A DNA stretch of 34,110 bases from an uncultured Clostridia bacterium (GTDB lineage: Bacteria > Bacillota > Clostridia > TANB77 > CAG-508): NCBI GenBank assembly GCA_944388675.1, contig CALXJR010000003.1, positions 1 to 34,110 of the forward strand, written 5' to 3'. The position numbers were made by a program, and so were the translations under genes. This document shows, one piece after another, positions 9,918 through 15,249 of the stretch (position 1 is the stretch's first letter; each line of letters begins with the position of its first letter). Under the pieces are notes generated by a model. That model saw nothing but the letters and a program-made list of their open reading frames with translations. It searched no databases and was not told where the DNA came from.

Positions 9918-10886
9918 TTAATCTTCTTTCTTTAACTGTTTTTTTTGCTCAGATAAATAATTATTCATTTGCTTCATTACATCTTCTGGATCTTCATAGC
10001 TTTTCTTTCTTGTTTCTTTTGTCTCATCTTTTTCAAAGTCATAAATGCTAGATTGTCTTTGATTTTTAGTATTTTGTTCTTCTCTATTTTGCTTTATTAT
10101 TGCTTCTGCTCTTTTTTTGTCTCTTTCTTTTTGCATTCTTATATTTTCTTCCATAGCCATTTTAGAATTTTGTTTTCTTACCATTGGAGTATTAATAGAT
10201 CCATAATAATATGAGCCATAATATTTCTTTTGTGAAATAGGCATTTTGTTTATTACAACTCCTGCAATTTTTCCTCCAACATTTTGAATTTCTTTTTTTA
10301 CTTTTTCTAAAGATTCAATTTTTGTTGTTTTGTAAGCTGCAACTATTATAGTAGAATCTACATATCTAGATAATATTACAGCATCTGTAACTAAATCGCT
10401 TGGTGTTCCATCTATTATAATTAAATCGCTTACTTCTTTTAATTGTTTTAATGCATCTACAACTTTAGAAGAAGTTAGTAATTCTGAAGGATTTGGTGGT
10501 ACATTTCCTGCTGGTATTAAATATAAGTTTTCAATTTCTGTTTCTTTTATATATGATAATATATTTGAGCTACTTTCTCCCCCTGTTGCATCTACTCCTG
10601 ATAAAAAATTTGATATTCCTGGTGTTGGTGCAACTCCAAATATTGAGAATTGTCTTCCTTTTCTCATATCACAGTCTATTAAAATAACTTTTTTGCCTGC
10701 TTGTGCAAAGGTAACTGCTAAATTTGCTGTTACCCAGCTTTTTCCTTCTGCTGGTGAAGTACTTGTTACTAATACAGATTTTAGACTATTTCTAGAATTT
10801 AAGAATTGAATATTAGTTCTTAATGTTCTAAACACCTCTGATACAGGAGATTTCGGATCTCTAAATGTTATAACTTCTTTTCTCAT
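9918..10886 (-). CDS. cpsD: Capsular exopolysaccharide tyrosine kinase (CpsD/CapB family)
   Basis: Cytosolic BY-kinase that pairs with the CpsC membrane adaptor and regulates polysaccharide polymerisation and export. 322 residues: Walker A SPAEGKSWV (44-52), Walker A' ILIDCDMRKGR (68-78) and Walker B LIIIDGTPSD (155-164). A tyrosine cluster KKYYGSYYYGS (220-230), the expected autophosphorylation site, is followed by a charged Lys/Glu/Gln-rich tail of about 90 residues with two further Tyr (SIYDFE, KSYED). Typical relatives end soon after the cluster, so the tail is unusual. The ATG overlaps the cpsC stop (TAATG) and uses the GGAGGT in the cpsC end. Confidence 0.93.
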   Translation of the reverse strand: MRKEVITFRDPKSPVSEVFRTLRTNIQFLNSRNSLKSVLVTSTSPAEGKSWVTANLAVTFAQAGKKVILIDCDMRKGRQFSIFGVAPTPGISNFLSGVDATGGESSSNILSYIKETEIENLYLIPAGNVPPNPSELLTSSKVVDALKQLKEVSDLIIIDGTPSDLVTDAVILSRYVDSTIIVAAYKTTKIESLEKVKKEIQNVGGKIAGVVINKMPISQKKYYGSYYYGSINTPMVRKQNSKMAMEENIRMQKERDKKRAEAIIKQNREEQNTKNQRQSSIYDFEKDETKETRKKSYEDPEDVMKQMNNYLSEQKKQLKKED

Positions 10887-11599
10887 TATCTTCTACCTCC
10901 TCTTCTCTTATTCACATTTGCGTCAAAATCACATAATGGTATTGTTGTTAAAACAGTAAGTCCTATTTTCTTTTCTACATCATCTTTAGATTTTACAGTT
11001 GTATCTAACATGTTGGCAATTAGTACATATATTGCAGATACTACAAGCCCTGCAAATATAAATATTATTATATCTCTTGTATGATTTATATTTGAAGGTG
11101 CTGTTGGTGTTTCTGCTGCATCCCATACTTGGGCGTTGTTTATTTTATATACACCATTTGCAACTTTCTCTATAAACACATTTACAACTTCTGAAGCTAT
11201 TCTACTTGCAAGCTCTGGATTGCTATCAGTTACTGATATTTGTATTAAGTCTGTATCATCTACAGATGAAACTGATATATTATTTTTTAATGAGCTTGCA
11301 GTTTTGTCAATATTTAAATTTCTTATAACTTCATCTAAGACATTATCACTTTTTATTAAAGTGCTATATGTTGAAACTAATTTTTGGTTTAATGTTAAAT
11401 CATTACTTGTAATTGTTTCTGAATCATCAGTTGTAGCCGATTGTGCTAGTATTACTGTTGTAGTTGCTGTATATTCTGGTTCTACATAAAGATATGAATA
11501 TACTACACCTATTATTAAAAATATTAGTACAATTATTACTATTTGAAGTTTTCTCGACCAAAACATGTTTATTAGTTCTTTTAAATCTAGTTCTTCCAT
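10886..11599 (-). CDS. cpsC: Wzz-type chain-length regulator / kinase adaptor (CpsC family)
   Basis: Membrane co-polymerase that activates CpsD and sets polysaccharide chain length. 237 residues with two membrane helices (about 18-38 and 173-195) around an extracellular loop beginning EPEYTATTTVILAQ, the standard Wzz domain. The second helix is preceded by the family's Pro-rich PTAPSNINHTRD stretch, and the short cytoplasmic tail ends NKRRGGRR. First gene of the cpsC-cpsD-cpsB operon; the promoter is at 11638-11667. The RBS GGGGAGA is about 13 nt from the ATG, rather far. Confidence 0.92.
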   Translation of the reverse strand: MEELDLKELINMFWSRKLQIVIIVLIFLIIGVVYSYLYVEPEYTATTTVILAQSATTDDSETITSNDLTLNQKLVSTYSTLIKSDNVLDEVIRNLNIDKTASSLKNNISVSSVDDTDLIQISVTDSNPELASRIASEVVNVFIEKVANGVYKINNAQVWDAAETPTAPSNINHTRDIIIFIFAGLVVSAIYVLIANMLDTTVKSKDDVEKKIGLTVLTTIPLCDFDANVNKRRGGRR

Positions 11600-11784: not shown

Positions 11785-12633
11785 CTATTTTACTTGAATT
11801 GTACGATATCTAATGTAACATGCAATACCTATAATAGCTATTACACCAACAATTATTAATGTAGAAACTCCTCCTGTTTGTGGAATTTTACCATCTGCAG
11901 TTGTTTTATCTTCATTTGTTCCGCCCTCGATGATTATTGTATCATTAGAGTTTGTTTGTGTATTTTGTATAACATTTGCTGTAGTATTTTGATTATTGCC
12001 ACTAGGTTTTTCTTCTTCGTTATTGTCATTTGGTTGTTGTTCATCGTCTGTATTAGGTATATCTTCATTTGGTTGATTATCATTTGGCTGTTCTTCGTCA
12101 GGTGTATTATCATCTGGTTGTTCTGCATCGGGTTCATTATCATCTGGCTGTTCTGTTGGGGCATTTTGTGCAAAATCAAGTGTAAAAGTTTTATTAAATG
12201 TTGCACTTGTCTCTCCATCTGAGAACATTAGATTACTTATGGTTACTTCTGTATTTTGTGCTGTTACTCCATCTTTTAATGTTAATGTAATTTCTGCAAT
12301 TGTTGTTCCTGCCTTAGCATTTTTTGTTGTTGAAAGGAAAGTTCCTGTAGAATCTTCATAGTCAATGTCTTCCCAATCATTTAATGATGTCATTGTAACA
12401 CTCTCAAATATGTTTTTATCATATTGTAAAGTTCCTTGGTATCCTAAATCTCCTGCTCCAGAATATGAACTTAAGTTTATTTGTATTACAACTTGTTTTT
12501 GACCTTCTGCAATATTTGCATTTTGTAAATTTATATTAAGTGTGCATAAAACTTCTGCATTTACAGATATAAACATTCCTGCTGTTACTATAACTGCAAA
12601 AATAATTAATGTTGTTATTAAAATTTTTTTCAT
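11785..12633 (-). CDS. Wall-anchored surface protein with one cohesin domain
   Basis: Probable receptor on the cell wall for dockerin-bearing proteins. 282 residues. Signal peptide 1-26 (cleavage after VNA). A cohesin-like beta-sandwich follows at about 27-155: VVIQINLSSYSG, LGYQGTLQYDKNIFESV, TTIAEITLTLKD and TEVTISNLMFSDGE follow the cohesin strand pattern. Then comes an Asp/Pro/Gln/Asn-rich wall-spanning linker (about 156-245) with three 10-residue EQPDDN-type repeats. The C-terminal sorting signal is IPQTG (250-254), a hydrophobic helix and a basic tail RYRTIQVK. It follows the dockerin gene by 13 bp, with RBS GAGGAGG. The neighbouring dockerin strongly supports the cohesin call. No catalytic domain is present; the sortase is not in the window. 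Confidence 0.82.
   Translation of the reverse strand: MKKILITTLIIFAVIVTAGMFISVNAEVLCTLNINLQNANIAEGQKQVVIQINLSSYSGAGDLGYQGTLQYDKNIFESVTMTSLNDWEDIDYEDSTGTFLSTTKNAKAGTTIAEITLTLKDGVTAQNTEVTISNLMFSDGETSATFNKTFTLDFAQNAPTEQPDDNEPDAEQPDDNTPDEEQPNDNQPNEDIPNTDDEQQPNDNNEEEKPSGNNQNTTANVIQNTQTNSNDTIIIEGGTNEDKTTADGKIPQTGGVSTLIIVGVIAIIGIACYIRYRTIQVK
12071..12155 (-). repeat. 30-bp tandem repeats in the cohesin-protein linker
   Basis: ATTATCAT(C/T)TGG(C/T)TGTTCT recurs at 12076, 12106 and 12136 with a 30-bp period. It encodes EQPDDN/EQPNDN units of ten residues. Such repeats can change copy number and so the reach of the surface domain. Confidence 0.75.
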
Positions 12634-12646
12634 AAGTATTCCTCCT

Positions 12647-14347
12647 CTAATTTATAATAATTTTTATTAATCTCATAACATCCATTATATTAATACTTCC
12701 ATCAGAATTTAAGTCAGATGCTAATTGTTCTATGGTGCTTAAAGTTCTGGTTCCTAAAATATGCCTTTTTACTCGCATTAAATCCATAATATTTGCTTTT
12801 CCATCTCCTGATGAATCTCCTGTAACAATTATAATATATGTCTTTCCATTTACTGTTAAAACATCACCAGTTGCTACTATATCTGTGTTTGAAAGCTCTT
12901 TATTATCTCTTGTAACTTTTAGTCCTGTAGTAACATTTAAGTTTTTAATAAAGTTTTCTAATGTCGTATCTAACTGAACATTTTTTAAATATCCATCATC
13001 TACTTCATATATATCAGATACTGGAGTTTCTTCCTCTGACACATCTGTGTCTGTTTCGTTTTCTATTGTATCTTCTGGGCTATCGTTTTCTTTAACAGAA
13101 TAATGCATATAAATAGTAATATAATTATTATCATCATCTTTCATTGTAAAAATTAAATCTTGCTTTTTTAGGTCTGAAACATTAACTAAAAAATATGTTA
13201 AATCTTCTGTAATCCAATACGTAATATTACCAGGCTCCATTTCATAGTAAACTTCACTATTATAAATTTTACTATTTGGATTCTTTAGACTTCTAAAAAT
13301 TGAAGTTAAATATACTTTTAATTGTTCAGAATTAAAGTCTTGTGTAACCTCTACAAAATATGTTTGATTATATATTGTCACTTTTTTTATATTAGATAAT
13401 GTTTCTAGTGGGTCTGTGTTAATTATGTGATTTGCATCTAAGTATAAATATTCTATTACATTATTATTATTAAAAGCTGAAATATCCGAAATTTGATTTT
13501 TATTTAAATTTATATTATATAACTTGCTTAATGTAGATAATTTTGAAATATCATATATTTCATTATTACTAGCACTTAAAATACTTAAATTAGTAATATT
13601 CTCTATACCTTGTAATGATTGTAAATTATTATAATTTAAGTTTAACTTTTCTATAGATGTATTGTTTTTAAAATTTACTATAGTGGAAATAGAGTTTCTA
13701 CTTATGTCTAAATTTTCTAATGATGTAAGTCCAGTAAGCATTGATGCATCTGTAATCTTATTTCCTGCAATTGATAACTCTCTTAAACTATTTAAATTGC
13801 CTATAGGTGAAATGTCTTGAATTTGATTATTATCTAAGTATAAATATTTTAAATTAGTTAAATATTGTAAAATTCTTATATTTGAAATATTGTTATTACT
13901 AAAATTAATATTTTGTAAATTAGTTAAATTTCTTAGAAAGCTTATATCTGAAACTTGGTTGCCACTTGCACTAATTTTGGTTAAAGACGTAAAATTACTT
14001 AGCACACTCATATCTGAAATATTGTTCCAATCTAAGTAAATCCATTCTATTCCTTTATCTGCAAATACTTCTAAGCCAGATAAATCTGTAATATCCTTTC
14101 CTGCTAAGTTTAATTGCTTTCCACTTGGCAATTCGTCTGATGTAATTTTATCTATATCAGACATTGTTATATTGTTTTTACTTTCGTTTCCTTCTACATC
14201 TCTTATTATCTCTAGTATTGCATTCTTTAAGTTTTCATCTTTAAATGAAGATGTTACATCTTCTTCTGCAAATACTGTTGTAGAAAATAGTAGAAGGTAT
14301 AACAAAATAGTAATGAAAGCAACTATTTTCCATTTGGTTGTTTGCAT
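12647..14347 (-). CDS. Secreted leucine-rich-repeat protein with C-terminal type I dockerin
   Basis: 566 residues. Signal peptide 1-28 (cleavage VFA-EE). From about 75 to 330 there are some eleven 22-residue internalin-type leucine-rich repeats (LTNLKYLYLDNNQIQDISPIG pattern), which usually bind protein or glycan ligands. A beta-rich region (about 331-420), an acidic linker (about 421-450) and a small domain (about 455-508) follow. The dockerin occupies 510-566 with two calcium loops, D511-x-S-x-D-G-x-x-N-I-x-D522 and D545-x-N-x-D-G-x-x-N-I-x-D556, each followed by a helix (LMRVKRHIL, VMRLIKIII). No hydrolase domain is seen. First gene of the operon, followed by the cohesin gene. The RBS AAGGAG lies about 10 nt from the ATG. 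The promoter is at 14385-14413. Confidence 0.9.
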   Translation of the reverse strand: MQTTKWKIVAFITILLYLLLFSTTVFAEEDVTSSFKDENLKNAILEIIRDVEGNESKNNITMSDIDKITSDELPSGKQLNLAGKDITDLSGLEVFADKGIEWIYLDWNNISDMSVLSNFTSLTKISASGNQVSDISFLRNLTNLQNINFSNNNISNIRILQYLTNLKYLYLDNNQIQDISPIGNLNSLRELSIAGNKITDASMLTGLTSLENLDISRNSISTIVNFKNNTSIEKLNLNYNNLQSLQGIENITNLSILSASNNEIYDISKLSTLSKLYNINLNKNQISDISAFNNNNVIEYLYLDANHIINTDPLETLSNIKKVTIYNQTYFVEVTQDFNSEQLKVYLTSIFRSLKNPNSKIYNSEVYYEMEPGNITYWITEDLTYFLVNVSDLKKQDLIFTMKDDDNNYITIYMHYSVKENDSPEDTIENETDTDVSEEETPVSDIYEVDDGYLKNVQLDTTLENFIKNLNVTTGLKVTRDNKELSNTDIVATGDVLTVNGKTYIIIVTGDSSGDGKANIMDLMRVKRHILGTRTLSTIEQLASDLNSDGSINIMDVMRLIKIIIN

Positions 14348-14364: not shown

Positions 14365-14393
14365 ATATATGATTTTACATAGAAATCATATAT
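14365..14393. repeat. Perfect inverted repeat over the -10 and leader of the dockerin operon
   Basis: ATATATGATTT (14365-14375) and AAATCATATAT (14383-14393) are exact inverted copies with a 7-bp spacer. The right arm contains the -10 and the left arm is transcribed just before the RBS. It may be an operator or an mRNA hairpin. Confidence 0.65.
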
Positions 14394-14413
14394 TTTATGG
14401 AACTTTTTGTCAA
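14385..14413 (-). promoter_or_regulatory. Sigma-A promoter of the dockerin-cohesin operon
   Basis: TTGACA (14408-14413), 17-bp spacer, TATGAT (14385-14390) on the minus strand. The start codon is about 38 bp downstream. Confidence 0.8.
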
Positions 14414-14417
14414 TAAA

Positions 14418-14455
14418 TGTTACAGAAATGTAATAAAAGTGTTAAAGGATTGTAA
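14418..14455 (-). promoter_or_regulatory. Four 11-bp-phased TTACA/TAACA boxes upstream of the -35
   Basis: On the minus strand the boxes are TTACA (14451-14455), TAACA (14440-14444), TTACA (14429-14433) and TAACA (14418-14422), spaced exactly 11 bp, then the -35 TTGACA. Direct repeats at 11-bp period on one helix face are the signature of OmpR/PhoB-family response regulators; the Bacillus PhoP box is TT(A/T)ACA-like. The regulator itself is not in the window. Confidence 0.6.
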
Positions 14456-14491
14456 TAAAAATAACATTCTTAAAGACACTGTTTTTATCTT

Positions 14492-15216: not shown

Positions 15217-15249
15217 TAAAAATTACAGAAGTGTAACAAAAGTGTTTTA
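15211..15249 (-). promoter_or_regulatory. 39-bp promoter-upstream element shared with 14408-14446
   Basis: Aligned without gaps to 14408-14446, 32 of 39 positions are identical, including the -35, the spacing and the TGTAA/TGTTT boxes (15232-15236, 15243-15247). The box nearest the -35 is degenerate (AATTA at 15221). This suggests a common regulator for both units, or a duplicated promoter. Confidence 0.65.

Follow-up and report, generated by a model that had tools for sequence, protein, structure and literature searches.

Through the response regulator WalR, the expression of cell-surface genes is coupled to the growth of the cell wall, and in those Firmicutes that have been studied, WalR systems are essential. 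The boxes of this regulator, also called YycF or VicR, are found in Bacillus, Staphylococcus, Streptococcus, and C. difficile on the 5' side of the -35 hexamer, and usually consist of a pair of half-sites with the sequence TGTWAH-N5, which produces an 11-bp repeat and reads DTWACA in reverse (PMC9210968, PMC4168254). In S. aureus, WalR sites located 5' of the -35 go with activation, while sites inside the promoter or 3' of it go with repression, irrespective of their orientation (PMC10746227). In C. difficile, WalR controls envelope and S-layer genes (PMC9210968), and in B. subtilis, according to a reference cited in PMC4801191 (Fukuchi 2000), YycFG modulates ftsAZ.

The PHO boxes, recognized by PhoB in E. 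coli and by PhoP in B. subtilis, have a similar architecture of 11-bp direct repeats that are bound by an OmpR-family regulator and lead into the promoter. The half-site of PhoP is TTHACA, and in the pho promoters of E. coli the box replaces the -35 hexamer. With regard to the gene products, the systems most similar to ours are the cellulosomes and amylosomes of Ruminococcus, in which dockerin proteins are paired with cohesins anchored to the wall by sortase.

The locus described here belongs to an uncultured Clostridia bacterium whose genome assembly comprises 1.44 Mb in 138 contigs and is 70.5% complete; the window is the whole stretch of DNA that was analysed, 34,110 nucleotides of contig CALXJR010000003.1. 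As in known WalR regulons, the genes preceded by its repeat include division and envelope genes, ftsAZ among them. Unlike the usual WalR boxes, the sites have three to four tandem half-sites instead of a pair, and unlike the known WalR regulons, the targets include operons for cohesin-dockerin display, a subject on which a literature search for WalR together with cohesin and dockerin found nothing. The site differs from a PHO box in the flank of its half-sites, in the absence of PstB, and in the presence of a consensus -35. The gene pair differs from the Ruminococcus systems in being a small two-gene operon for an LRR or SH3 dockerin protein that adjoins polysaccharide genes, with no carbohydrase seen in the dockerin operon. 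As far as can be judged from sequence, the WalR box would be a known kind of operator, and what appears to be new is that, in an uncultured family, it precedes operons of cohesin-dockerin display.

The array, its promoter, and the dockerin operon

Four TWACA units follow each other in exact 11-bp steps on the minus strand of the window, from 14455 to 14418. Read 5' to 3' on this strand, the region is TTACA ATCCTT TAACA CTTTTA TTACA TTTCTG TAACA TTTA TTGACA, then 17 bp and TATGAT, followed by the ATG at 14347 (Table 1). An earlier note on this DNA had located four pentamers at 14418, 14429, 14440, and 14451 (low coordinates on the plus strand), at 11-bp steps and leading into TTGACA; these coordinates are correct, and unit 4 is only 4 bp away from the -35 at 14413-14408. 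The promoter, with 11 of the 12 consensus bases, is near-perfect. On the plus strand, positions 14418-14456 read TGTTAC-N5-TGTAAT-N5-TGTTAA-N5-TGTAAT, that is, four exact WalR half-sites forming three overlapping TGTWAH-N5-TGTWAH pairs.

The DNA of the window has a GC content of 25.7%, and single TWACA units occur in it about 160-180 times per strand. The exact four-unit array occurs once, and its expected number for both strands, calculated from the single-unit frequency, is about 3e-5. When three mismatches are allowed, the four-unit pattern has 7 matches in the window versus 0.46 expected, the 7 matches including shifted registers of the same array.

Table 1. Coordinates of the array units, promoter hexamers, and genes of the dockerin locus in the window.
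Feature	Coordinates	Strand	Remarks
Unit 1, TTACA	14451..14455	-	WalR half-site TGTAAT on plus, 14451-14456
Unit 2, TAACA	14440..14444	-	TGTTAA on plus
Unit 3, TTACA	14429..14433	-	TGTAAT on plus
Unit 4, TAACA	14418..14422	-	TGTTAC on plus; 4 bp from -35
-35 hexamer, TTGACA	14408..14413	-	
-10 hexamer, TATGAT	14385..14390	-	17-bp spacer to -35
LRR-dockerin protein, secreted, 566 aa, type I dockerin at the C-terminus; first gene	12647..14347	-	Pfam LRR_4 1.2e-30, Dockerin_1 2.5e-12
Cohesin protein, 282 aa, second gene	11785..12633	-	Pfam Cohesin 1.6e-5
Wzz-type polysaccharide chain-length protein	10886..11599	-	Same strand and order in orthologous loci G024, G207, G185
Polysaccharide tyrosine autokinase	9918..10886	-	TIGR01007; synteny
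CpsB/CapC-type phosphatase, 249 aa	9165..9914	-	Synteny in G207 and G185

The N-terminus of the LRR-dockerin protein resembles a signal peptide, and the C-terminus of the cohesin protein, with IPQTG, a hydrophobic stretch, and the basic RYRTIQVK, constitutes a sortase-type sorting signal. The Wzz, tyrosine autokinase, and CpsB/CapC genes are presumably cotranscribed with the cohesin gene. Across genera, the order of all five genes is kept in G207 and G185, and that of the LRR-dockerin, cohesin, Wzz, and kinase genes in G024. In two genomes of the g20 genus, the LRR-dockerin gene is broken into two reading frames (L153 1047-2688, G024:C12, and L206/L208, G052:C72).

Orthologues of the LRR-dockerin gene, whose proteins are 40-81% identical to that of the window, were found in 6 of the 292 family genomes and 4 of the 39 genera, as well as on additional contigs whose label is uncultured Clostridium or Clostridia. 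Unit 4 is identical in every orthologous promoter and invariably lies 4 bp from the -35, and unit 3 is retained in all of them, with the sequence TGACA in G289. In most orthologues, unit 1 stays in the 11-bp register; it reads TTTCA in L218 and is displaced by 2 bp in G289. Unit 2, exact in L218 and degenerate in the remaining orthologues, is the least conserved. The -35 and -10 hexamers are conserved as well, those of G289 being TTGAAT and TATACT. The spacers between the units drift among the orthologues and the units persist; since the upstream flanks of the orthologues differ, the array is a phylogenetic footprint and not just the result of recent copying. The earlier note had named beforehand the conservation of the spacing in related genomes as a check, and units 3 and 4, together with their distance to the -35, are indeed kept in other genera.

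The same promoter contains a perfect 11-bp inverted repeat (14365-14375 and 14383-14393, ATATATGATTT and AAATCATATAT, with a 7-bp loop), which extends from the -10 to just 5' of the ribosome-binding site. This repeat is kept in G207, is weaker in L218, and in G289 has its place taken by an inverted repeat of another sequence; it is possibly a second operator.

Distribution of the array and its target genes in the family

A bare two-unit search of the genome gave no enrichment (70 matches versus 57 in the control). Sites were taken as informative when they had at least three units or when a pair of units was tied to a promoter; a pair at 15223-15238 of the window, which is mid-intergenic and has no promoter at the expected distance, was left out of the counts. 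Runs of three units are present at only four places in the genome, namely the dockerin operon, ftsA, a gene of 597 aa, and a VanY-RR-HK operon.

The family was analysed with the promoter-linked pattern TTACA-N6-TWACA-(4-15)-TTGA-(19-20)-TANNNT, using as control the reversed pattern, which is matched in base composition. In 79 family genomes, the pattern had 185 matches versus 16 for the reversed control, counts that mix in orthologous and paralogous promoters and therefore do not represent independent events. At least one match is present in 68 of the 79 genomes; genome G006 supplies 21 matches, and the excess without it is 164 versus 16. Among the 78 distinct sites retrieved, the gap between the array and the -35 is only 4-8 or 13-15 bp, with no site at 9-12.

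The genes behind these sites have a regulon-like distribution. The 27-bp array of ftsA, which is accompanied by ftsZ, is letter-identical in four genomes of the genus and widespread in the family. In this genome, a second operon, of SH3-dockerin type, has the array, and its dockerin was confirmed by Pfam; the same confirmation was obtained for 7 proteins from seven further family genomes that are counterparts behind the array, and G002 has an SH3-dockerin counterpart with a similar array. At the array sites, the SH3-dockerin genes are followed by those of membrane-anchored partners. Further genes located 3' of the retrieved sites encode a conserved 180-aa protein, prepilin-like and other surface proteins, and the LRR-dockerin protein, and the array also precedes a gene ahead of a polysaccharide deacetylase gene. 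The site is not a feature of all dockerin loci: a third type has none at the beginning of its operon on G003:C34 and G001:C35. This third arrangement (L118 and L120 on these two contigs, and L121 on G000:C81) is composed of an LPXTG cohesin, a sortase-like gene, a dockerin protein of 744-755 aa, and another surface protein. An array of several units, oriented the other way, was also observed 5' of a conserved gene starting with MKRRNFTMSKSGIVNVRMVITEE (L101, L104, and L108 in G004:C20, G001:C75, and G005:C3, and L090 in G000:C80), which is possibly a repressed target.

The base before a unit conforms to the WalR rule (A, G, or T) in the four units of the dockerin array and in all 158 promoter-linked units of the family, so that C, with a background of about 10.6%, is found before none of the 158. 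The T needed by TTHACA precedes one of the four dockerin-array units and 14 of the 158 family units, which is below background.

Candidate regulators and competing explanations

The genome encodes seven OmpR-family regulators. One of them, C17 (G000:C17:5806-6534), adjoins a PAS-containing kinase of the WalK/PhoR type that scores equally as PnpS and as WalK. The best NCBIfam model for C17 is YycF, with 298 bits, below the cut-off of 340, and the next model reaches 231. Its DNA-binding domain has its best PDB matches with WalR/VicR/YycF, with a recognition region of YGDIRTVDVTVCRIREKL versus FGDVRTVDVTVRRLREKI, and the WalR region RTVDVTV is kept in C17 alone, the one of the seven that scores best and specifically as YycF. 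When C17 is the regulator traced, a WalR orthologue of this type is present in 71 of the 79 family genomes and in all 39 genera sampled. Eight array-bearing genomes of the 79 (G001, G003, G018, G035, G056, G063, G067, and G075) have no WalR match at 1e-60, which likely reflects assembly gaps, since their congeners have WalR. The walR-walK group is itself preceded, just 5' of its first gene, by a reversed two-unit site (L025 7637-7652, G000:C17), with autoregulation as a possible function.

The array is a real, evolutionarily conserved control site. Based on the fit of the motif, orthology, and distribution, we assign it to WalR, and we consider it probable (about 75%) that it is a WalR-type operator that would activate the surface display of the dockerin protein along with wall growth. 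The tandem TGTWAH-N5 half-sites, 11 bp apart on one face of the DNA and directly 5' of a sigma-70-type promoter, would be occupied by phosphorylated C17, most likely as a WalR dimer on units 3 and 4 beside the -35, and a second dimer may bind the weaker units 1 and 2. Bound WalR would help RNA polymerase to transcribe the operon, and the secreted LRR-dockerin protein would then be held on the wall by the sortase-anchored cohesin, with the polysaccharide-assembly genes lying 3'. Production of the docking system would follow a signal from WalK that the wall is actively growing. WalR as the binder, activation as its effect, and this physiological signal are what we infer from the pattern; activation is the likely mode because all four units lie 5' of the -35, the nearest one 4 bp away.

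The earlier note had compared the same-face direct repeats with PhoP/PhoB-type boxes and had proposed a two-component switch, possibly responding to phosphate, that would link adhesion to starvation. The direct-repeat box of the OmpR/PhoB family is supported by our analysis, as is, by prediction, control by a two-component system, although of the WalR kind. Phosphate is where the comparison breaks down. PHO boxes likewise consist of direct repeats in 11-bp steps that run up to a promoter (PMC4415409), and the OmpR-family regulator C45, encoded with a histidine kinase and a WG-repeat protein, scores best against the PhoB model, but its 214 bits are under the cut-off of 296, which no regulator of this 70.5% complete genome reaches. 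PstB was found in 0 of 6 genus genomes, with all candidates scored, and in 0 of 79 family genomes, where scoring was in most cases applied to the 29 top candidates of a genome; of 14 control genomes, 13 do score. Hence, the genomes searched offer no pst promoters carrying a PHO box with which the array could be compared, as the note had suggested. The T of TTHACA is as rare before the units as described above, and the genes behind the array are division and surface genes, which also speaks against the link with starvation. A PhoP/PhoB box that turns on the dockerin operon under phosphate starvation is very improbable, and we rejected this reading on the grounds of the missing PstB and the half-site flank.

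It is rather unlikely that the OmpR-family box is bound by another regulator of this genome, such as C45 or C67. C45 keeps YYGDSRTIDSHIKKIRKKL, which is close to the WalR recognition region, and three units at 11-bp steps are found 5' of the C67 VanY-RR-HK operon (L019 7161-7187, G000:C67), an array conserved in G003 (L107, G003:C53). However, the C67 units are CTTACA, with the C that is absent from all the promoter-linked units, and the RTVDVTV region is kept only by C17, a regulator found in all 39 genera. A C in this position is at odds with the WalR rule, and the C67 array may therefore serve the regulator encoded in its own operon and have a different specificity. An array without any specific regulator, consisting of AT-rich phased DNA that aids RNA polymerase as an UP element or a bend, would agree with the low GC content and with the position just 5' of the -35, but it is hardly credible given that TWACA and its flank are conserved letter by letter, C positions included, that the excess over the composition-matched reversed pattern is strong, and that the orthologues retain the units as the spacers drift. 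A different question is whether bound WalR would repress, or do no more than tune, a promoter of high intrinsic strength; a near-consensus promoter could work unaided, and in other species some targets are repressed by WalR, but the units occupy the position associated with activation in S. aureus (PMC10746227), and we find this effect unlikely.

LytTR-type repeats (AgrA/VirR) were considered as well, given an AgrA-like gene divergent to the array on C9, and were rejected for the window site: the repeat length and the 11-bp spacing do not fit AgrA/VirR repeats.

A proposed link between docking and cell-wall growth

Under the WalR assignment, the display of dockerin proteins on the surface through cohesins would seem to be governed by the control of the cell wall and of division, and not by phosphate starvation. 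A broader proposal, to which we give even odds, is that in this family of Clostridia with small genomes the LRR- and SH3-dockerin display operons belong to a WalR regulon together with ftsAZ, and that docking serves wall growth and division instead of fibre degradation. If this is true, docking would replace adhesins on the surface, or enzymes of the wall, in step with the formation of new wall. The repeat would in this way lead to a predicted regulon of an uncultured family, comprising ftsAZ, two kinds of cohesin-dockerin operons, the conserved 180-aa gene, and surface proteins, and it suggests a non-cellulosomal role of dockerin display, coupled to wall synthesis.

Some surface-protein genes of this genome are paralogous and have a common array promoter (L077, L089, and L092 in G000:C33, C79, and C111). 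Those of C33 and C79 have short upstream reading frames encoding THTHTHT or ERERERER, which suggests dinucleotide repeats as a possible basis for phase variation.
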